Origin: a virus
Virus record (IMG/VR): IMGVR_UViG_3300046810_000452
Span: 1-21,352 of that record
Reading direction: 5' to 3' (one strand)
Length of the DNA stretch: 21,352 bases
Of the stretch, positions 2,165 through 18,943 are shown piece after piece. The notes below the pieces were generated by a model. The model saw nothing but the letters and a program-made list of their open reading frames with translations, was not told where the DNA came from and made no database searches. The position numbers and the translations under genes are program-made. Position 1 is the first letter of the stretch. Each line of letters begins with the position of its first letter.

Positions 2165-2608
2165 ATGCGACGCGCCCAGCTCTCACGGATCGGATTTGCG
2201 CTGTTACTTACCGGTTTAGGTGTGTCATTGAGTGCCCACGCGGAATTGCCGTGCTGCGCCTCGGGGGACAACGGCAAGCCGCATGCGATGGCGGTGCCGA
2301 CGCAAACGGACCTGGGCAAGGCAGCCCCGGAAGCACAGAACCTTTCGGCGGCGCCGGATTGGCGCGTGTACGTCTTCACGCGGGATACGGTGCGCTATGT
2401 CGAGCTGACCGACGCCACCGGCGTTCCGCGCGCTGCGTATACCGTTGTGGGCGACCGAGTGCTGGCGCTGCCGATCGGCAGCGATGTGGTGCAGCAAGTG
2501 GCCGTTGCGCCGCCAGTTGCGGTGGTGGTGTATCAGGACGACTACTCGGTGGTGGGTGTTGTCACCAATGCCGACGGCACTGTCACTTGGCAGGTCTTCG
2601 TCAAGTAA
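2165..2608 (+). CDS. Small secreted protein of unknown function in the immunity region
   Basis: 147 residues with a clear Sec signal peptide: basic MRRAQLSR, a hydrophobic core IGFALLLTGLGVSL, and a likely cut after SAHA (about residue 26). The mature part begins ELPCCASG and then has beta-rich segments (WRVYVFTRDTVRYVELTD, VAVVVYQDDYSVVGVV). GGAGG lies 9 bases before the ATG. The gene is isolated and faces right, with a repressor operator 51 bp upstream and a strong terminator directly downstream, so it is likely a one-gene unit. It is probably periplasmic. No family is recognised. Position between the left operator and the rex-like locus suggests an accessory (moron) gene, possibly affecting the envelope, but that is inference. 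Confidence 0.7.
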   Translation: MRRAQLSRIGFALLLTGLGVSLSAHAELPCCASGDNGKPHAMAVPTQTDLGKAAPEAQNLSAAPDWRVYVFTRDTVRYVELTDATGVPRAAYTVVGDRVLALPIGSDVVQQVAVAPPVAVVVYQDDYSVVGVVTNADGTVTWQVFVK

Positions 2609-2628: not shown

Positions 2629-2658
2629 AAAAGGCCCCTCACGGGGCCTTTTCTTTTT
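2629..2658. terminator. Strong intrinsic terminator between convergent genes
   Basis: A perfect 10-bp stem AAAAGGCCCC / GGGGCCTTTT has a TCAC loop and is followed by TTCTTTTT. The A-rich left arm makes it usable from both directions. It ends the 2165-2608 gene, and the stop codon of the opposing gene lies within the hairpin. Confidence 0.9.
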
Positions 2659-4282
2659 GAGCGCGTTGAGCTCTTCGGGTGACGTGCCCTCGCAGCGTTG
2701 GTATCCCGTGCCGTTCCATCGCCTCGTCCAGGAGGATGACCCGGATACGGTGCGGCTTATTGTGAAACGATCCCTCGTAGGCCAAGGCGCGCGTGCGAAG
2801 GCCGGCCAGGCGAGCAGTGTCTACCGACGACCTCGTGGTCACCGCTGGATCGCGAGCGTAGAGAGCGATGCTTACGTGGCCACGCCCATTGCGGGTCGTG
2901 CAGCGCACGCGGATCTGCATGCTTGTGGGAATCGAGGCGAGCAGATAGTCCACCGACTCGCCGATCACACGGTATACAGCGCGCTGGGTCGCGATCGGGA
3001 GATCCTGGGCCGAGCCCAGGAGGTCGAGATTGCACTCCACGGATGCCATGTCGAACTGTAGGTGAAATGCCTCCGAGTTCAGCGCCGCGTAAAGGCCGTC
3101 GCGCTCGAGCGTGAGTGGGTAAAGGGCATCGACGATGATCTGTTGAAAGGCTGCGGCTTGGCTGTGGGCGATACCCACCAAGCCCATGGCGACCTCGGAA
3201 TGGCCCTGTGCCCTGAGCCACTTAATCGTCGACTGCATGGCCGTGCGGCTGCTCGTCTGGAGCTCCTCGGCCCGAATGGCGCGTTCGCGCATGAGCGATT
3301 CGCTGGAGTCGAAGCTGGCCTTGGCCAGGTGGCGTGCCGCGCGCTCGGCGTTGCTCGCCCCTGTTGCCTCATGCATTCGCTCGTAGATCCGGGCGCCGAG
3401 CACGAACATGGAGCAGGCGATCAGGGCGAAGGCCTCTTGCATCACCAGCGCTCCCGGGTCGCTGAGACCGGCGTCTTGGTGAGGGATGGTCAAGAAGAGC
3501 GCCACGTTGGATGCCACAGCACCGACACACGCGCCCCGGTAGCCAAAGCGGACCGACATCGCGACGGCCGGAACCAGCAACAGCATGCGCATGCCCTGGA
3601 CGAGGTTCGTATCGGCGCTAGTGGTGGTGGCGGCGGAGATAGCCGCAGCGAGGATGAGCGAAAGCACGATAGTGACCCCGGCCTCGATCCGGAGCATGCG
3701 CTCGCGCCGTGGATCCACACATTTGCCGAAAATGCAGATAGCGACGAACGAGAAGAGCAGGATCCCCTGCAGGTGGCCCATCGTGTAGACGAAGAGGTCC
3801 GAGAACTTCATCGCGCCAGCGCTGTGCCTCAGAAGGGCAGAGCATGCCTTGTTGAGAAAGCTTGGCAGCTCTGCAGCAATCAGTGCGGCGATGACGAACC
3901 AGCCGGCGTCCATGGCCGTGCGAATGTGCGGGAGCGCCGACTTCTTCCGAAGCTGGTACACGACCGCGGCTACGGCGGGCCACACCGGGAAGACCGAGGC
4001 CGTCACCCAAGCGATACCGTCGCTCGGAATCATGGGAATGCGGAATAGGCCCAGCGCAACGATGTCGCCGGCGTACAACGCGGGCCAGTATCGCGTCGGG
4101 GTGATGAGTAACATGACGAAGCGAAGGCCAGCCGGCAGATACCACTGGTCGTTTGACGTCTCGCGAAGCGCCAGATAAGCAAGCGCATAGGTCGCCGCAA
4201 TGGCAACGTGACTCAAAGCCCGTGCGGCCTTCCTTGCCAATGCGCTGCGCGCGCCCCAAGCATCCACTGCACGGTCAATCAT
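2639..4282 (-). CDS. MASE1 membrane protein with degenerate UhpB-like histidine kinase tail
   Basis: 547 residues. Residues about 20-305 hold roughly eight hydrophobic segments with a MASE1-like pattern (QWYLPAGLRF near 46-55, WPAL near 66). A helical linker follows (310-350), then a kinase-like tail. The HATPase N-box of HisKA_3/UhpB kinases is recognisable but altered (YRVIGESVDY, 437-446, where family members carry E-x-x-x-N). The last glycine motif is reduced to LAGLRTRALAYEG (492-504). No phosphoacceptor His motif and no DxGxG box are seen, so kinase activity is unlikely. It lies 66 bp downstream of the repressor on the same strand, matching lambda rexA/rexB, so it is probably made in the lysogen. 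Role unknown; superinfection exclusion or sensing of an envelope or metabolic cue are possible. The stop lies in the terminator hairpin. Confidence 0.75.
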   Translation of the reverse strand: MIDRAVDAWGARSALARKAARALSHVAIAATYALAYLALRETSNDQWYLPAGLRFVMLLITPTRYWPALYAGDIVALGLFRIPMIPSDGIAWVTASVFPVWPAVAAVVYQLRKKSALPHIRTAMDAGWFVIAALIAAELPSFLNKACSALLRHSAGAMKFSDLFVYTMGHLQGILLFSFVAICIFGKCVDPRRERMLRIEAGVTIVLSLILAAAISAATTTSADTNLVQGMRMLLLVPAVAMSVRFGYRGACVGAVASNVALFLTIPHQDAGLSDPGALVMQEAFALIACSMFVLGARIYERMHEATGASNAERAARHLAKASFDSSESLMRERAIRAEELQTSSRTAMQSTIKWLRAQGHSEVAMGLVGIAHSQAAAFQQIIVDALYPLTLERDGLYAALNSEAFHLQFDMASVECNLDLLGSAQDLPIATQRAVYRVIGESVDYLLASIPTSMQIRVRCTTRNGRGHVSIALYARDPAVTTRSSVDTARLAGLRTRALAYEGSFHNKPHRIRVILLDEAMERHGIPTLRGHVTRRAQRAQKEKAP

Positions 4283-4348: not shown

Positions 4349-5044
4349 TTACAGGCAGTCTATGACTAGGCCGCCGATCTCGAGCTTCGAGTAGTCAGCG
4401 CGCGCCAGCTCGAAACGGTTGTCTGTTTCGCGATCGCCCACCAGGCGAATGGACTCATCGCCCGGCATGAGCTGGATCCGCCGGATGTCGGGACGACCGT
4501 ACAGGCGCACAGCGTATGTCTCCCCATCCATGACCTGGTCCAGGTCGCTGTGACTTACATCTACGAGCACCAAGGCGCCCGGTTGGATACGTGGTCGCAT
4601 CACGGTGGTCGGATTTCGGATCCAGCGGACGTTCTTCAGGTTCGCATGAGGCACACGCTGGCGCACGAGGAACTCAGGTAGGTAGAGCTCGTTTGGCCCA
4701 GTGTGCTTGTCGAACCCGGCCAATCGATCGATCTGCACGTGGCCAGGGATGTCGCCGCGGATGGTCGGTGCACGCTCTTCGCCCAGGATCTCGTCGCCTT
4801 CGACCAGCACGTCGAGCGTGTACCCAAGCGCCTTGGCGATTTCGGTGAGATCCGCAAGCGAAGGGATGCGGTTCCCGCTTTCGTAGTTGCCCAGCCGACT
4901 GGTCGACGCGTAGCCGAGGTGGGCCGCGAGCCTCTCCTGAGTCAGGTTGAGGCTCTTTCGGGCGTTGGCGATTCGTGCGCCGAGCAGATGAGGATCCATG
5001 GGGCGGGATGGTTCGCGCTTTGCGGTGAAGCCGCCATCACCCAT
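4349..5044 (-). CDS. CI/LexA-type phage repressor, S24 fold lacking the catalytic dyad
   Basis: 231 residues from the ATG at 5044, with a GGGA about 4 bases upstream. The open frame runs further upstream through the operator but without a plausible start. An internal ATG at 4999 (M16) is possible but has no ribosome site. Residues 22-82 are an XRE helix-turn-helix (LTQERLAAHLG, then SRLGNYESGNRIPS). Residues about 120-231 follow the S24/LexA dimerisation domain (PGALVLVDVSHSD, MDGETYAVRLYG). The active-site Ser of the usual SMxP is Val (VMRP, 148-151), and the Lys position in YAV..KR is Arg (188-189). RecA-stimulated self-cleavage is therefore not expected. It diverges from the Cro-like gene over a shared operator. 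Confident as repressor; the missing dyad is read by eye alignment. Confidence 0.85.
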   Translation of the reverse strand: MGDGGFTAKREPSRPMDPHLLGARIANARKSLNLTQERLAAHLGYASTSRLGNYESGNRIPSLADLTEIAKALGYTLDVLVEGDEILGEERAPTIRGDIPGHVQIDRLAGFDKHTGPNELYLPEFLVRQRVPHANLKNVRWIRNPTTVMRPRIQPGALVLVDVSHSDLDQVMDGETYAVRLYGRPDIRRIQLMPGDESIRLVGDRETDNRFELARADYSKLEIGGLVIDCL

Positions 5045-5063: not shown

Positions 5064-5085
5064 AGAATGTCACGTTGCGTGACAA
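5064..5085 (-). promoter_or_regulatory. Possible repressor maintenance promoter (PRM-like)
   Basis: On the minus strand there is a good -35 TTGTCA (5085-5080) overlapping the operator edge, but no good -10 follows at 16-18 bp (best near TTCTAAGC). A weak promoter that needs activation would fit a repressor gene. The start would be near 5050, a few bases before the ATG. Confidence 0.3.
5069..5083. promoter_or_regulatory. Main right operator between repressor and Cro-like genes
   Basis: GTCACGTTGCGTGAC has perfect 6-bp arms around TTG, extended by T and A to TGTCACG...CGTGACA. It lies between the -35 and -10 of the rightward promoter and overlaps the -35 of the leftward repressor promoter, so one site can control both. 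An exact copy is at 2100-2114. Confidence 0.85.
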
Positions 5086-5092
5086 TGAGCGC

Positions 5093-5434
5093 ATGACCCT
5101 CACTGCTCCTGACCTGGTTCCTTGTCCCCGCGACGCCGAGGCTGACGCCGCTGCTGCCGACTTGGTCCTTCAAGCTCTTGATCTGGCGATTCAACATGTC
5201 GGTGGCGTCTCGAAGATGGCGCGGGCTCTCGGGGTGCCTCCCAACCAGGTCAGCATGTGGCGGCTCCGCAAAAGCGTTCCGCCCGATCAGGTGGTCCCCA
5301 TGGAGCAGGTGGTCGGCGGGTTCGTTACTCGGTATCAGTTGCGCCCCAAGACCTTCGGCGCCGCCCCTGTTCCCGATCAGTCCGCGTCCGGTGGCTACCT
5401 GCCAGCTGGAATCCGGCCGTCGGAGGCGCAGTAA
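5093..5434 (+). CDS. Cro-like regulator of the YdaS helix-turn-helix family
   Basis: 113 residues. Residues 27-88 match the YdaS/Cro pattern: ALDLAIQHVGGVSKMARALGVPPNQ, then VSMWRLRKSVPPDQVVPMEQ and the diagnostic end GGFVTRYQLRPKTFG. The protein should bind the operators as a dimer and turn down the repressor in lytic growth, the usual Cro role. The N-terminal 24 residues (Ala/Asp-rich) and the C-terminal Pro/Gly tail are extra. The ATG at 5093 is the first ATG in frame; it lies on the predicted transcript start and has no real ribosome site, suggesting leaderless translation. It is first in the rightward early transcript. Confidence 0.75.
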   Translation: MTLTAPDLVPCPRDAEADAAAADLVLQALDLAIQHVGGVSKMARALGVPPNQVSMWRLRKSVPPDQVVPMEQVVGGFVTRYQLRPKTFGAAPVPDQSASGGYLPAGIRPSEAQ

Positions 5435-13385: not shown

Positions 13386-14970
13386 GCGCATTGACGCCGA
13401 CGACGAGGCTGCGGCCAGGGCCGATGCCCAGGCGCGGCTGATGGCGCTCCTTGCCGATCGCGACTGGCGGCTGCGCAATCTTTACAAGATCGTCGACAAG
13501 AACGGCGACGTCGTCATGTTCAAGCCGAACACCGTGCAGGAGCTGTTCCTCGCGGGGTTCCACAATCGCAACATGGTGCTGAAGAGCCGTCAGCACGGCA
13601 TCACCACCATGGCCGCGATCCTCGCCCTAGACACGGCGCTGTTCCGGTCGAACACGACGTGCGGCCTCGTCATGCACAAGCAGGGCGATGCTGAGAAGGT
13701 GTTCCAGGGCAAGATCCTGTTCGCGTACGACCGTCTGCCGGACTGGCTGAAGGCAGCCAGGCGCATCGTCAAGCGGGACATGGGTGGCGAGCTCGAATTC
13801 TCCAACGGATCGAAGCTCTACGTCTCGCTGTCCCACCGCTCGGGCACGCTGCAGTTCCTGCACATATCTGAATACGGCCCGATGTGCGCGTTCTATCCGC
13901 TGCGCGCGTCCGAGGTGAAGTCCGGTGCCTTGAACACGGTCTCGCCTGATGCCTTGGTCACGATCGAGTCCACGGCGCACGGCCGCATCGGCGACTTCTA
14001 CCAGATGGTCCAGCGCTCGATCCAGCTGGACGCCATGGTGAAGGCGGGCACTGCGGTCCTGACAAAGCTCGACTACCGCTTCAACTTCTTCGGCTGGTTC
14101 GAGGATCCGATCAACGAGCTGGACCCGGAGGGCGTGACCTTCGGTACCGAGATCCTCGAATACTTTACGAAGCTCGAGAACGAAAGCGGGATCGTCCTCT
14201 CCGACCGAAAGCGTGCCTGGTACGCGAAGAAGTCGGAGGAGCAGGGCGACAAGATGAAGCAGGAGCACCCGTCGACGCCCGAGGAAGCCTTCGAGCAGGC
14301 GATCGAGGGTGCTTACTACGCCAAGGAGATCGCCAAGGCCATGAAGGAAGGCCGGGTCACCGACCTGCCGATCATCCCTGGCATCCCCGTCAACACCTTC
14401 TGGGACATCGGCCGCTCCGACTCCACCGACATTTGGTTCCACCAGCAGGTCGGCGCGTGGCACCACTTCATCGACTTCTACGAGATGTCAGGCGAGCAGG
14501 CCGAACACTACGTGCGGATCATGCGCGAGAAGCGATACATCTACGGAAAGCACTACCTGCCGCACGACGGCATCAACATCGAGTGGGCCGGTACCGGAAA
14601 CAAGACGCGCCTGCAGGTCCTGCAGGATCTGCTACCGGGCAAGGTCGTCCTCGTCGAACGGATCGACAACCTGCAGGATGGCATCGACATGGTTCGCCAG
14701 TCCCTGTCGCGCTGCCGCTTCGATCGCACACGCTGCGGCGAGAGTCCTCCTGGGTCGGGCCGCGGCGGCCTGCCGGCACTCATGAGCTACCGCAAGGACT
14801 GGAACGAGAAGCTCGAGGTCTGGCACGACCATCCCCTGCATGACTGGGCGTCCAACGCTGCCGATGCCTTCCGACAGTTCTCCCAAGGCCATCCCATGAA
14901 CGGCGTCAACGACGCCTCGACAACCCAGCGCCGGTACGACCGGCGCGAGCGCAATTGGAGAACCTCATGA
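13372..14970 (+). CDS. terL: Terminase large subunit (packaging ATPase and nuclease)
   Basis: 532 residues. ATPase part: a Walker A variant KSRQHGIT (71-78), a Walker B region LQFLHISE (160-167, Ser where Asp is common before the Glu) and a coupling motif TIESTAHG (197-204). EHPSTPEEAFEQA (298-310) is a standard marker of this family. Nuclease part: FWDIGRSDSTD with D345 and YLPHDG with D399 as likely metal ligands. It cuts concatemeric DNA and pumps it into the prohead through the portal. Full length for the family. It overlaps the next gene by 4 bases. Confidence 0.92.
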   Translation: MAVAERIDADDEAAARADAQARLMALLADRDWRLRNLYKIVDKNGDVVMFKPNTVQELFLAGFHNRNMVLKSRQHGITTMAAILALDTALFRSNTTCGLVMHKQGDAEKVFQGKILFAYDRLPDWLKAARRIVKRDMGGELEFSNGSKLYVSLSHRSGTLQFLHISEYGPMCAFYPLRASEVKSGALNTVSPDALVTIESTAHGRIGDFYQMVQRSIQLDAMVKAGTAVLTKLDYRFNFFGWFEDPINELDPEGVTFGTEILEYFTKLENESGIVLSDRKRAWYAKKSEEQGDKMKQEHPSTPEEAFEQAIEGAYYAKEIAKAMKEGRVTDLPIIPGIPVNTFWDIGRSDSTDIWFHQQVGAWHHFIDFYEMSGEQAEHYVRIMREKRYIYGKHYLPHDGINIEWAGTGNKTRLQVLQDLLPGKVVLVERIDNLQDGIDMVRQSLSRCRFDRTRCGESPPGSGRGGLPALMSYRKDWNEKLEVWHDHPLHDWASNAADAFRQFSQGHPMNGVNDASTTQRRYDRRERNWRTS

Positions 14971-15167
14971 ACCACGTTAACCAACCGGCGAACCAGCCCG
15001 GTGCCCGAGAGGGCGCGCTCCGCTTCGGCAACCTCGCCACGTGCATCTGCGCCGGCCTATATGGCCTGAACGACAACGACGTCCAGGCCATGGTCCAGCG
15101 GAACATCACGATCGACAGCGAGCGTGCGTTCAACGTCCAGTATTCTAAGCAGGAGAAGGAAGCATGA
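14967..15167 (+). CDS. Small hypothetical head-region protein
   Basis: 66 residues; TTGGAG stands about 7 bases before the ATG at 14967, in an ATGA overlap with terL. An ATG 12 bases upstream is less well placed. Polar, Asn/Gln-rich N-terminus, then a helix (FGNLATCICAGLYGLNDNDV) and an acidic/basic end. No motif known. Likely a minor or non-structural product of the late unit. Confidence 0.55.
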   Translation: MNHVNQPANQPGAREGALRFGNLATCICAGLYGLNDNDVQAMVQRNITIDSERAFNVQYSKQEKEA

Positions 15168-16021
15168 ACCAGAACAGCGTTACGCAGGACCAGATCGCAG
15201 CCCTACGTGCCCGGGTCACGATCGTTTTCACCAACCCGGAAGGGACTACCTCGACGTTTGCGCACGCGTTCCTCGACGGCCGCTTCTACCTGGACACCGG
15301 GCATAGCGCCTGCGTGGACCCGGCGAACTTCGACGCCGAGAAGGGCAAGGACTACGCCGCGCAGAGCCTGGAGCCCAAGATCCTTGGCAAGCTCTGGCAG
15401 TTCGAGGGTTACGCCCTCTACAAGCAGCTTGCGGCCGGATCACAGCTGAGGGTGGATCCGCAGCCGGTTGCTGTCGATGCGGCAGCGCCAACGGTGGCGG
15501 ACGATGCCGCCGGCACGCTCGGCGCTGAGCTCGTGGAGGCGGAGCCCGCGTCGACGAACGAAGTGGCAGCCGATCCCGCGCAGGCTGCACCGCCTACGCC
15601 CGTGGCGCCCACCGCCGTCACCGACGAGCACGTTACGGCGTTCCTGCAGTATCCGCTGCCCGAAGACGTCCACCCGGATGTGGTTCCGGGGTCCCAGAGC
15701 TACGGAACTCATTTGCTCTCGTGGCCGCAAGCGAAGGCGATGCTTGAACACGTCTTCAGCTTCGGCAAGAAGGCCGAGGATCCGCCGGCGGACACGTGGC
15801 TTGACCGGCTGCGCGCCGAGCAGGCCGAGCTCGCGGCCCGCGTGGTCAAGCTCAACGCGTTTCTGGACGGGCACGGCGCTCCCACGGATACGGACGAAGC
15901 GTTGCTCCGCCGCCAGGCGAGCTTGATGGATCAGCTCGACGATGTGCTCCTCCAGCGGATCGCCCGTGCGCTTGCCACCGCACCGGTGCCTGTTGCGGCA
16001 GCCCTGGAGACGCAGGCATGA
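15164..16021 (+). CDS. Gp49-like protein fused to a crAss001_48-related domain
   Basis: 285 residues, ATGA overlap at both ends. Residues about 10-88 match the phage Gp49 pattern (AFLDGRFYLDTGHSACVDPA, NFDAEKGKDYAA, KLWQFEGYAL). A Pro/Ala/Glu-rich linker (95-150) follows, then a segment ending in SFGKKAED. Residues 210-268 match the crAss001_48-related helical domain (DTWLDRLRAEQAELAARVVK, LLRRQASLMDQLDD). Both domains are common in phages and of unknown role. The fusion places them in one late protein beside the portal. Confidence 0.7.
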   Translation: MNQNSVTQDQIAALRARVTIVFTNPEGTTSTFAHAFLDGRFYLDTGHSACVDPANFDAEKGKDYAAQSLEPKILGKLWQFEGYALYKQLAAGSQLRVDPQPVAVDAAAPTVADDAAGTLGAELVEAEPASTNEVAADPAQAAPPTPVAPTAVTDEHVTAFLQYPLPEDVHPDVVPGSQSYGTHLLSWPQAKAMLEHVFSFGKKAEDPPADTWLDRLRAEQAELAARVVKLNAFLDGHGAPTDTDEALLRRQASLMDQLDDVLLQRIARALATAPVPVAAALETQA

Positions 16022-16281
16022 AGGGCTCGATCGGTCGCATCATCATCGTGAAGGGCAAGGTCGTAACCAGCAACGGCACCGACCTCGCGCCGGCGATCAT
16101 CACCCGGTCGTGGTCCGACAAGGACACCCTCGCAGAGCCGGTGATGGTCAACTGCACGGCGCAGCTGGACCTCGCCGGTGCGCAGCACATCGGCAGCGTG
16201 ATGCTGTACGACACCGAGGCCGAGGCCTTGGCGGCGTACGACGGCGCGAATCCCGTCGCGTACTGGCCGCCTCGGGTCTGA
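16018..16281 (+). CDS. Hypothetical late protein
   Basis: 87 residues in an ATGA overlap. The sequence is beta-rich with no membrane segment: GSIGRIIIVKGKVVTSNG, VMVNCTAQLDL, HIGSVMLYD, ending ANPVAYWPPRV. This looks like a small beta-barrel or SH3-like fold. No family recognised. It is translationally coupled to the next gene by TGATG. Confidence 0.55.
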   Translation: MKGSIGRIIIVKGKVVTSNGTDLAPAIITRSWSDKDTLAEPVMVNCTAQLDLAGAQHIGSVMLYDTEAEALAAYDGANPVAYWPPRV

Positions 16282-16757
16282 TGCCGATGAAGCGGGAGAG
16301 CTTCGCTTACGCAATGACGCCCGGCGGCGGCAACAACGCCGGCGTCAACCACGTCACGTCCAGGCATAGCCACGTCGGTAAGAAGGGCGACCTGACCGTC
16401 GAACTCCACTACGGGAACTTCGGTACTGGCCACGGCCGACAGGCAGCCCTCTTCCTCAGGCGCAACGACCCGGGGAAGGGTGTGTTCATTCCGCTGTCGA
16501 TGATGTGGCAGTACGCGGAGCACAACGCCATACACCTGATGATCCCACCCCTTGCCCAGCAGCTGTACGGCTTCGTGACCAAGGACGACTTGTTCCGGGT
16601 GATGGATGCCGTGATGGATTACCTCGGCGATCTGCGCAAGTCGCCACCCGATCCGGACCTCTACAAGGACAAGTGCCTGGACGCGTTCATGGAAGGCTGC
16701 GCTCAGGAAGGGCTCGAGTTCTTCGTCGAAGTGAATGGCAAAAGGACGGTGGGCTGA
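16281..16757 (+). CDS. Hypothetical late protein
   Basis: 158 residues, coupled to both neighbours by TGATG. The N-terminal half is Gly/Asn/His-rich (MTPGGGNNAGVNHVTSRHSH) with beta segments (LTVELHYGNFG, GVFIPLSMMW). The C-terminal half is helical and acidic (DLFRVMDAVMDYLGDLRK). No catalytic motif is clear. Being directly before the portal suggests a head-related or packaging-accessory role, but this is unproven. Confidence 0.55.
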   Translation: MPMKRESFAYAMTPGGGNNAGVNHVTSRHSHVGKKGDLTVELHYGNFGTGHGRQAALFLRRNDPGKGVFIPLSMMWQYAEHNAIHLMIPPLAQQLYGFVTKDDLFRVMDAVMDYLGDLRKSPPDPDLYKDKCLDAFMEGCAQEGLEFFVEVNGKRTVG

Positions 16758-18943
16758 TGGCAACGGGCATGCTTGACGTTCATGGTCAGAATAACGGCGA
16801 CGGGTTCGGCGCGCTTCAGCCAGCTGATCCTGCGGACAACCCGCCGACGCACTACCTGGACACCGACGAAGGGACGCGGATCCTCCGCCGCCTTGAAGAC
16901 TGGTGGACCGAGGCGCGTGACCAGCACGCCGACAGTCGTCGCGAGCAGCTCATCGACGCGGACTACTACGACTCGATCCAATGGCGCGCTGAAGATGCCC
17001 AGGTCCTCCTCGAGCGTGGCCAGGCGCCGCTCACCTTCCCGATCATCAAACAGATGGTTGACTGGGTGATCGGTACCGAACGCCGCACGCGTATCGACTG
17101 GGACGTTCTGCCCCGGGCCGATCAGGACGTCGACATTGCCGCGGTGAAGAAGGATGTCCTGAAGTGGATCTCCGACGTGAACGGCGCCGGCTGGGAGCGT
17201 AGCGCGCAGTTCGCCGATGCGGCGAAAGTTGGCATCGGCTGGACCGAGGAGTGCTACAACAACGACAAGTCCGAGGAGGCCATCACGGTCCGCCACCAGG
17301 ACTGGAAGGGTATGTGGTGGGATCCGTACAGTCGTAGCAACGTCATGCGCGACTGCCGGTACATGACCCGCGCCAAGTGGATCGACCTCGACTACGCCAT
17401 CGCTATGTGGCCCGATCGTGCCGCCGAGCTGGACAAGCACGCGATCGACACTCTCGACTCCCCGATGGAGTCGTTGATCATGGAGTCGTCGGTACCGCAG
17501 ATGTTCTTTGGCGCACCGGCGCCCTTCTCGTCAGACCGCACCGCCAACTCTGGCTCGTTCAACCTCTACGGGTCGAGCAGCATGTTTCGTCGGGCGCGCA
17601 AGCGCGTGCTCTGCCTCGAGACCTGGTTCAAGCGTGCCGTGAATACGCCGCTCGTCCTGGGCGATAGCGCCAGCGACCTTAATGGCCTGCCGTTCGACCC
17701 GAAGAATGCCGTTATGCAGGACGCTCTCTCCACCGGCGTTGTCAGCCTGGTCGACAGCGTCACCGAGGAAATGTGGTTTGCCCTCTGGACGCCTGGCACG
17801 CTGCTGCGCCTGAACAAGTCTCCCTACAAGCACAAGCGCTTTCCATTCACCCCTACTTGGGCGTATCGCCGCCACAGGGACGGCATGCCTTACGGCCTCA
17901 TCCGGCCAGCGCGTGACGCCCAGGACGAGTACAACAAGCGCCGCTCGAAGATCCTGTTCGACCTGTCGACCACGCGCGTCATCTACGAGACCGGGGCGAT
18001 GGAGGAAGCGGACGAGGATCGCAACCTCGAAGAGGCGAAGCGACCAGATGGCGAGATCCGCCTGGCGCCGAACGGTATGGAGAAGTTCAAGATCGATCGC
18101 GCCCTCGACGCGATGACCGGCCAGATCGCGATGCTCGCCGAATCGAAGGGCAACATCTACGAAGCGAGTGGCGTCACACGCGAGAACACGGGCCAGGGCG
18201 CCAGCAGCGACCAGAGCGGCAGGGCGATCCTCGCCAAGCAGCAGCAGGGCAGCGTCACGACTGCGGAACTCTTCGACAACTTCCGCCAGGCCATCCAGGA
18301 GTCCGGGCAGAAGACGCTCAGCAACTGCGAGAAGTTCTTATCGCTGCCGAAGGTCGTTCGCATCGCCGGCGCAGATGGGGCGATCAAGTTCTTTTCCATT
18401 AACAGCCCGCAGTACAACCACGCGACGGGCGACGTGACCTGGAACAACGACATCACGGACAGCGAGGCCGACTTCGTCATCGATCAGACCGACTATCGCG
18501 AGACGGTTCGTATGGCCATGGCCGAGTCGTTGTTCGAACTCATCGGCCGCATGCCACCCGACGTCGGTGTCCAGATGCTCGATATGGCCGTCGACCTCAC
18601 GGACATTCCGAACAAGCAGGCCCTCGTCAACCGAATCCGCCAGATCAATGGCCAGACGGCACCCGGCCTGGAGAACAGCCCAGAGGCCCTGCGGGCGCAG
18701 CAGGCCGCAGATGCCGCGAAGCAGGCACAGGAGCAGACCGCGACCGAGGCCCAGCAGGCAAAGACCAGGCTCGACAACGCACGCGCGTCGGCTGCCGAAG
18801 CAACCGCGCGGAGCACGACGGTGGAAGGTAAGACGCAAGCCCTTCAGACCGCTGGAATGCTCCATGCGTTGGCGCCGCTCGCTCCCGCGGCGGACCGTCT
18901 GTACGACCCACAGGCGGCAGCACCCGCCGCTCCCATCCAGTGA
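16757..18943 (+). CDS. Portal protein, P22 type
   Basis: 728 residues, very close to the P22 portal length. Family-like features: the opening helix RILRRLEDWWTEARDQHADS, DADYYDSIQW, FPIIKQMVDWVIGTERRTRIDWDVLP, DWKGMWWDPYSR, and RDAQDEYNKRRSKILFDL; then NTGQGASSDQSGRAILAKQQ in the stem/crown region. The C-terminal 80 residues are a long Ala/Gln-rich helix (barrel-like in P22). Twelve copies form the DNA channel at one vertex and bind terminase. TGATG joins it to the upstream gene. Confidence 0.9.
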   Translation: MATGMLDVHGQNNGDGFGALQPADPADNPPTHYLDTDEGTRILRRLEDWWTEARDQHADSRREQLIDADYYDSIQWRAEDAQVLLERGQAPLTFPIIKQMVDWVIGTERRTRIDWDVLPRADQDVDIAAVKKDVLKWISDVNGAGWERSAQFADAAKVGIGWTEECYNNDKSEEAITVRHQDWKGMWWDPYSRSNVMRDCRYMTRAKWIDLDYAIAMWPDRAAELDKHAIDTLDSPMESLIMESSVPQMFFGAPAPFSSDRTANSGSFNLYGSSSMFRRARKRVLCLETWFKRAVNTPLVLGDSASDLNGLPFDPKNAVMQDALSTGVVSLVDSVTEEMWFALWTPGTLLRLNKSPYKHKRFPFTPTWAYRRHRDGMPYGLIRPARDAQDEYNKRRSKILFDLSTTRVIYETGAMEEADEDRNLEEAKRPDGEIRLAPNGMEKFKIDRALDAMTGQIAMLAESKGNIYEASGVTRENTGQGASSDQSGRAILAKQQQGSVTTAELFDNFRQAIQESGQKTLSNCEKFLSLPKVVRIAGADGAIKFFSINSPQYNHATGDVTWNNDITDSEADFVIDQTDYRETVRMAMAESLFELIGRMPPDVGVQMLDMAVDLTDIPNKQALVNRIRQINGQTAPGLENSPEALRAQQAADAAKQAQEQTATEAQQAKTRLDNARASAAEATARSTTVEGKTQALQTAGMLHALAPLAPAADRLYDPQAAAPAAPIQ

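Follow-up and report, generated by a model that had tools for sequence, protein, structure and literature searches.

The gene at positions 2639 to 4282 of the window (the whole 21,352-nucleotide stretch of virus record IMGVR_UViG_3300046810_000452) encodes a MASE1 membrane protein whose sequence and predicted structure support its description as a catalytically dead histidine kinase derivative with a kinase-like fold. The gene belongs to a cassette that is real and conserved and that combines known parts in an undescribed way. Our preferred reading, to which we give a probability of roughly 0.45, is that it forms the membrane part of a prophage immunity cassette and would act on the prophage repressor through binding-based transmembrane signaling. 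The original prediction had recognized the membrane half, the kinase remnant, and the position of the gene, but it overlooked the features that change the picture most, namely, a convergent partner gene and a dedicated pseudo-protease domain in the repressor. The cassette was not described in the openly licensed papers that we searched for MASE1 with prophage, Xanthomonas, or pseudokinase and for pseudo-histidine kinases with phage. The features of the region are as follows.

2066 to 2080: putative left operator, GTCACGGAACGTGAC, an exact palindrome, with the same arrangement in the related virus contig L002.
2100 to 2114: putative left operator, GTCACGTTGCGTGAC, an exact palindrome whose end lies 51 bp before the start of the secreted protein gene.
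2165 to 2608, plus strand: gene for a small secreted protein of 147 amino acids with a signal-peptide-like N terminus and an all-beta domain at residues 66 to 146 (sequence, structure prediction, and family-wide linkage).
2628 to 2653: terminator hairpin with an 11-bp stem, stable on both strands (z scores of -4.4 and -5.0), with a T tail on the plus strand.
2639 to 4282, minus strand: MASE1 pseudo-histidine-kinase gene, 547 amino acids, ATG start (ORF list, Pfam, NCBIfam, AF2, and Foldseek).
2729 to 3376, minus strand: pseudo-kinase half, residues 303 to 518, with DHp-like helices and a GHKL-like alpha/beta domain (model, Foldseek, alignment, and purifying selection).
3377 to 4207, minus strand: MASE1 integral membrane domain, residues 26 to 302 (Pfam PF05231; helices at residues 2 to 265 in the model).
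4349 to 4999, minus strand: prophage repressor with an HTH_3 head and a degenerate S24-like C-terminal domain, 216 amino acids from the ATG at 4999 (Pfam, PHROGs, and alignment).
4349 to 4765, minus strand: S24-like C-terminal domain of the repressor, in which other residues stand in place of the catalytic Ser (NPTTVMRPRI) and Lys (PDIRRI) (alignment of 31 domains and linkage to pseudo-kinases).
5069 to 5083: putative right operator, GTCACGTTGCGTGAC, an exact palindrome between the repressor and the cro-like gene.
5093 to 5434, plus strand: Cro/YdaS-like divergent regulator, a marker for the right-hand side of the immunity region (Pfam YdaS_toxin, E value of 9.1e-16; P22_Cro, E value of 3e-7).

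The ORF coordinates agreed with the claim that a 547-residue gene lies on the repressor's strand and 66 bp downstream of it: the coding part of the repressor covers 4352 to 4999 on the minus strand, and because its stop codon ends at 4349, the intergenic gap is 66 bp. Three exact GTCACG-N3-CGTGAC palindromes were observed in the window (at 2066, 2100, and 5069), where 0.01 was expected. With these palindromes as operators, the gene occupies the position before the left operators that lambda rex holds, as had been proposed, and the rightward secreted gene together with the leftward pseudo-kinase and repressor genes fills the space from the left to the right operators. The secreted gene starts 51 bp from a putative left operator, and its expression may therefore be under repressor control. 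The hairpin at 2628 to 2653 comes after the secreted gene and overlaps the pseudo-kinase gene at its 3' end; a search of the region for sigma-70 consensus promoters found none. When other cassettes were searched, shared palindromic operators were clear only in the window, in L002, and, as a variant, in L007. The arrangement is not a contig artefact, as it is nearly identical in L002 and related ones are present in many genomes. The 64-kb L002 contig also contains, outside the part common to the window, an ORF of 726 amino acids (14842 to 17022, plus strand) that appears ParB-like by eye.

Residues 26 to 302 of the window protein matched Pfam MASE1 (PF05231) with an E value of 2.7e-18, which upholds the earlier assignment of the membrane half. 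No Pfam match to HisKA_3 or HATPase was found in the protein even at an E value of <1. The tail is nonetheless truly kinase derived and of the UhpB type, because the NCBIfam UhpB model aligns over residues 30 to 507 (E value of 9.9e-14), although the score of 50.9 bits falls below the equivalog cutoff of 408. In an alignment against intact MASE1-HisKA_3 kinases, which carry HELHDE..GQ, the N-box Asn, and DDGIG, none of the three catalytic signatures (the H-box phospho-His, the N-box Asn, and DxGxG) was present. The original prediction had described a tail that keeps traces of the N-box and of the last Gly motif while lacking the phospho-His and DxGxG; the alignment agreed and showed that the N-box Asn is gone as well, with AVYRVIGE at this position retaining only the AVYR helix start. 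The second DHp helix is still recognizable as LYPLTLERDGLYAAL and the final Gly motif is also still recognizable, LRTRALAYEGSF being a further kept segment, whereas the phospho-His helix is altered along its length, beyond the loss of the His itself. An ordinary sensor kinase was rejected on the missing motifs.

The AlphaFold model of the protein (mean pLDDT of 88.8) combines a bundle of membrane helices with long coiled helices and an alpha/beta domain. The best solved match of the tail in Foldseek was the DesK catalytic core (3ehj; E value of 1.8e-5), followed by other histidine kinases, so that model and Foldseek both place a DHp plus GHKL (CA) fold in the tail. A phmmer search of PDB sequences with the window protein gave no meaningful match, and the relation to DesK is visible by fold alone. 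Thus, the profile search and structure prediction proposed for this protein returned a kinase-like fold without its motifs, the proposed origin from a sensor kinase was borne out by the UhpB-model alignment and the DesK-like fold, and the pseudo-kinase claim survived a search for intact HisKA or HATPase motifs. PHROGs contained no family for the pseudo-kinase. PADLOC had no model matching the window protein or a plasmid member, and membership in a known antiphage defense system was rejected for this reason.

Homologues were found in viral contigs (L002 and L007 to L019), in the genomes of Xanthomonas and other Lysobacterales (L020 to L054), and on mobilizable Xanthomonas plasmids. Scanning the genome contigs with the window protein alone gave no matches, and the relatives came with an alignment query; the phages collection yielded only one chance-level match to the pseudo-kinase. 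A survey of 299 genomes of the bacterial family recovered 95 pseudo-kinase loci in 58 genomes, with a wide score gap between the pseudo-kinase family (E values of <1e-100) and ordinary MASE1 proteins (E values of >1e-38), to which a single gene fragment was the exception. Among the 30 aligned family members, all matched MASE1 in Pfam and none matched HisKA_3 or HATPase at an E value of <0.01. The H-box with its phospho-His was missing from the family as well as from the window protein, whereas intact relatives have it. The suggestion that the same gene might serve as an ordinary sensor in phage-free chromosomes had a mixed outcome: the gene is common in Xanthomonas chromosomes and plasmids, yet there too it is a pseudo-kinase with a convergent secreted partner. 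On four mobilizable Xanthomonas plasmids (L003 to L006, all large), a related pseudo-kinase and the convergent secreted gene lie beside DUF6602 and HD-domain genes, with a tyrosine recombinase not far away.

The loss of every catalytic motif could also mean that this is a decaying passenger gene without function. We give this explanation almost no weight, as it is contradicted by the selection data: in repressor-linked pairs both protein halves are under purifying selection, with dN/dS well below 1 and mostly 0.05 to 0.25 in the pseudo-kinase half. It also sits poorly with 95 loci in 58 genomes, 85 of which keep the partner, and with a fold and shared motifs that are common to the family at about 22 to 51% identity. 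The sequences thus describe a pseudo-kinase family that is old, conserved, and not decaying, and the window protein, with its kinase fold, lost catalytic motifs, and maintenance by selection, is a pseudo-histidine kinase.

Intact kinases group together (support of 100) in a 138-protein tree. The repressor-linked pseudo-kinases occupy several positions among the deeper Lysobacteraceae branches, and the large Xanthomonas group from chromosomes and plasmids forms a single clade nested among them. Although the root and some long branches are uncertain, this topology fits the domestication of repressor-free copies from an old phage cassette. Tandem copies of the MASE1 pseudo-kinase were seen at L095, L184, L092, and G132:C7, sharing one secreted partner, except that none was found at L092. 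At L089, an intact MASE1 kinase adjoins a second MASE1 gene with decayed H, N, and G boxes, which is a separate pseudo-kinase outside the family of the window protein.

The secreted protein gene is convergent with the pseudo-kinase gene in the window. Its all-beta domain is confidently predicted, and the 147-residue protein matched no Pfam family and no PDB fold. A partner homologue was in the same convergent position at 52 of the 54 loci that we fetched, the remaining two being cut by contig ends, and in the 299-genome survey the partner gene faced the pseudo-kinase at 85 of 95 loci, with contig ends and tandem copies accounting for most exceptions. Distant homologues of the secreted protein (E values of 1e-9 to 1e-17) occur unpaired with a MASE1 pseudo-kinase at G299:C1:2465891, G246:C1:1662513, G072:C1:4020743, and some 25 similar places, and they perhaps represent an older host family. 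In a sample from the wider order, the partner was beside seven of eight pseudo-kinases and none of seven intact MASE1 kinases, indicating that motif loss and the secreted partner go together. Most of the intact kinases that we examined instead adjoin a NarL-type response regulator (Pfam Response_reg plus GerE).

Another explanation is that the window protein interferes with host two-component signaling, in the manner of RocA on CovS: it would either dimerize with intact kinases of the MASE1/UhpB type or titrate a NarL-type response regulator. The DHp-like helices retain their shape in the model, intact MASE1-HisKA_3 kinases are present in the wider order, and inactive kinases that regulate active ones are known (RocA, PMC7380576; DivL, PMC4211667). 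We consider such interference improbable: the phospho-His helix is rewritten throughout rather than at the His alone, and interference predicts neither the secreted partner nor the repressor domain.

The same-strand gene directly upstream of the pseudo-kinase was a phage-type repressor or regulator at 36 of the loci examined, and 31 of these 36 have in common one S24-like C-terminal domain, which Pfam recognizes below threshold. The DNA-binding heads joined to this domain vary (HTH_3, Phage_CI_repr, and weak YdaS/HTH_3). The Ser/Lys dyad was complete in none of the 31 aligned domains, with Arg in place of the Lys and usually Ala or another residue in place of the Ser; the window repressor, with TTVM and IRRI at these positions, likewise lacks the catalytic dyad. 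All 21 strong matches to the domain in the 299 genomes (E values of ≤4.2e-48) were directly upstream of a MASE1 pseudo-kinase; one of them, G123:C30, was absent from the pseudo-kinase survey list, and its pseudo-kinase was observed in L164. The next-best matches (E values of 2e-10 to 7e-8) were active-looking S24 repressors with GDSM and VKRL or IKRL and with no MASE1 gene nearby. Searching the viral contigs for the repressor domain alone, with two tight repressor alignments as queries, recovered four loci that the pseudo-kinase scan had missed (L191 to L194), each of which has both the pseudo-kinase and the partner. The phages collection contained no homologue of the domain.

We measured co-variation with an indirect, mirror-tree statistic, the partial correlation of pairwise identities over 31 cassettes, with bootstrap intervals and with pairs that are not independent. 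The repressor domain co-varied with the pseudo-kinase half (0.58; 0.43 to 0.70) and much less with the physically nearer MASE1 half (0.16; -0.08 to 0.40). The secreted protein, in turn, co-varied with the MASE1 half (0.30; 0.01 to 0.58, an interval just above zero) and not with the pseudo-kinase half, which is nearer to it on the DNA (-0.01). Both patterns are the reverse of what linkage predicts, which is suggestive, and they would fit a chain from the secreted protein to the MASE1 domain, the pseudo-kinase, and the repressor domain, although they are not proof of one. In three pairs of loci (L151 and L164, L138 and L139, and L144 and L145), divergence is small in the repressor domain and the pseudo-kinase half but far larger in the MASE1 half, which looks like exchange or diversification of the sensor half.

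Under the preferred reading of control by contact, the MASE1 half would read the secreted protein or a state of the envelope, and the pseudo-kinase half would signal by binding, without phosphotransfer, through a cytoplasmic contact with the repressor's C-terminal domain. The contact would hold, free, or sequester the repressor, which would take the seat that a response regulator has beside intact kinases. Such control would replace RecA-driven self-cleavage, so that lysogeny would be induced or stabilized by envelope signals. A stronger version, which we regard as rather unlikely, is a new lysogeny switch: a membrane pseudo-kinase that reads a secreted protein of the phage would control a repressor free of SOS cleavage by way of the repressor's dead S24 domain, amounting to a two-component system rebuilt without phosphorylation and with the repressor replacing the response regulator. 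The secreted protein in such a switch would possibly signal from one lysogen to another or serve to gauge the envelope. It is important to note that co-inheritance as a DNA block could alone produce the exclusive linkage of domain and pseudo-kinase. Four loci with unrelated upstream repressors that do not have the S24-like domain (L013, L016, L152, and L154) count against the contact reading, as does the repressor-linked locus G107, L093, where no secreted partner was found. Moreover, most family members in genomes have no adjoining repressor, and repressor contact therefore cannot be the general job of the family.

It is also possible, and we take it seriously, that the two genes are a lysogenic-conversion or exclusion pair, a rex-like moron that alters the envelope or surface polysaccharides such as LPS and EPS so that adsorption or injection by rival phages is impaired, with the repressor operon serving only as a lysogen-specific promoter. 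A slot on the repressor's strand between the left and right operators suits this explanation, and so does the occurrence of the same gene pair in chromosomes and plasmids as well as in prophages, a spread typical of portable accessory modules. A mutant phenotype in Xanthomonas citri points the same way. The chromosomal family gene in Xanthomonas is preceded by the MFS transporter of a xylose gene cluster, an order identical to that of X. citri XAC1776 (xylose isomerase), XAC1777 (MFS transporter), and XAC1778 (PMC8245568, PMC10380989, PMC3130047). XAC1778, described in 2011 as a UhpB-like sensor kinase with MASE1 (PMC3130047), is probably a member of the pseudo-kinase family, to which synteny and MASE1 annotation rather than its own sequence assign it. 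Its transposon mutant had EPS at 48%, swimming at 54%, and swarming at 61%; the LPS pattern was changed and the biofilm impaired (PMC3130047). Phage exclusion could plausibly arise from such changes in LPS and EPS. However, a rex-like pair leaves unexplained why the pseudo-S24 domain is never found without the pseudo-kinase and why co-variation skips the nearer protein half, and no PADLOC model matched. We therefore prefer repressor control by contact over a surface or exclusion function, and both can hold together. The earlier interpretation of a kinase-derived membrane protein, perhaps an exclusion or signal-interfering factor, stands in part: the kinase ancestry, the death of the motifs on sequence, and the position were supported, while homology to Rex was not seen in Pfam.

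How prophages that have no cleavable repressor decide when to depart is largely an open question, for which this cassette is a recurring, compact, and testable candidate: its membrane protein, its secreted protein, and its repressor domain co-occur across many prophages. It suggests an undescribed route by which a dormant virus reads the state of the host cell envelope. Because the repressor-free pair is found in plant-associated Xanthomonas and the syntenic mutant is changed in LPS, EPS, motility, and biofilm, the module is possibly a general envelope-signaling device, which may have been domesticated from, or captured by, phages.

Several known systems resemble parts of this cassette. Lambda rexA and rexB are likewise 3' of the repressor, on its strand, and between the left and right operators, and rexB-rexA-cI fills the operator-to-operator space as the window cassette does. 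The window differs in having one kinase-derived gene rather than two and a secreted convergent gene between the pseudo-kinase and the left operator, and its protein matched neither RexA nor RexB in Pfam or PHROGs. S24/LexA-type repressors such as lambda CI and P22 c2 share the HTH head and the S24-like C-terminal domain, but the dyad is incomplete in 31 of 31 cassette repressors, and their domain was found only beside MASE1 pseudo-kinases. Kinases of the UhpB or MASE1-HisKA_3-HATPase kind (HPK7, DesK/NarX type) are alike in the MASE1 domain, the DHp and CA fold, and the full-length UhpB-model alignment; the window protein, without the phospho-His, the N-box Asn, and DxGxG, is far under the UhpB cutoff, and its neighbor is a convergent secreted partner and not a response regulator. 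In Escherichia coli DgcE, the MASE1 domain is the docking site for a partner that drives signaling, RdcA/RdcB (PMC6510439), although the output of DgcE is a diguanylate cyclase and its partner is a cytoplasmic GTPase, while the partner in the window is secreted. Other bacterial pseudo-histidine kinases, such as RocA, DivL, and ChrS in its pseudo form, keep a kinase fold with catalysis lost or repurposed and act by protein contacts on host kinases or regulators (PMC7380576, PMC4211667, PMC9491836). The window protein differs from these in being phage borne and MASE1 based and in its linkage to a secreted protein and to the domain of a phage repressor.
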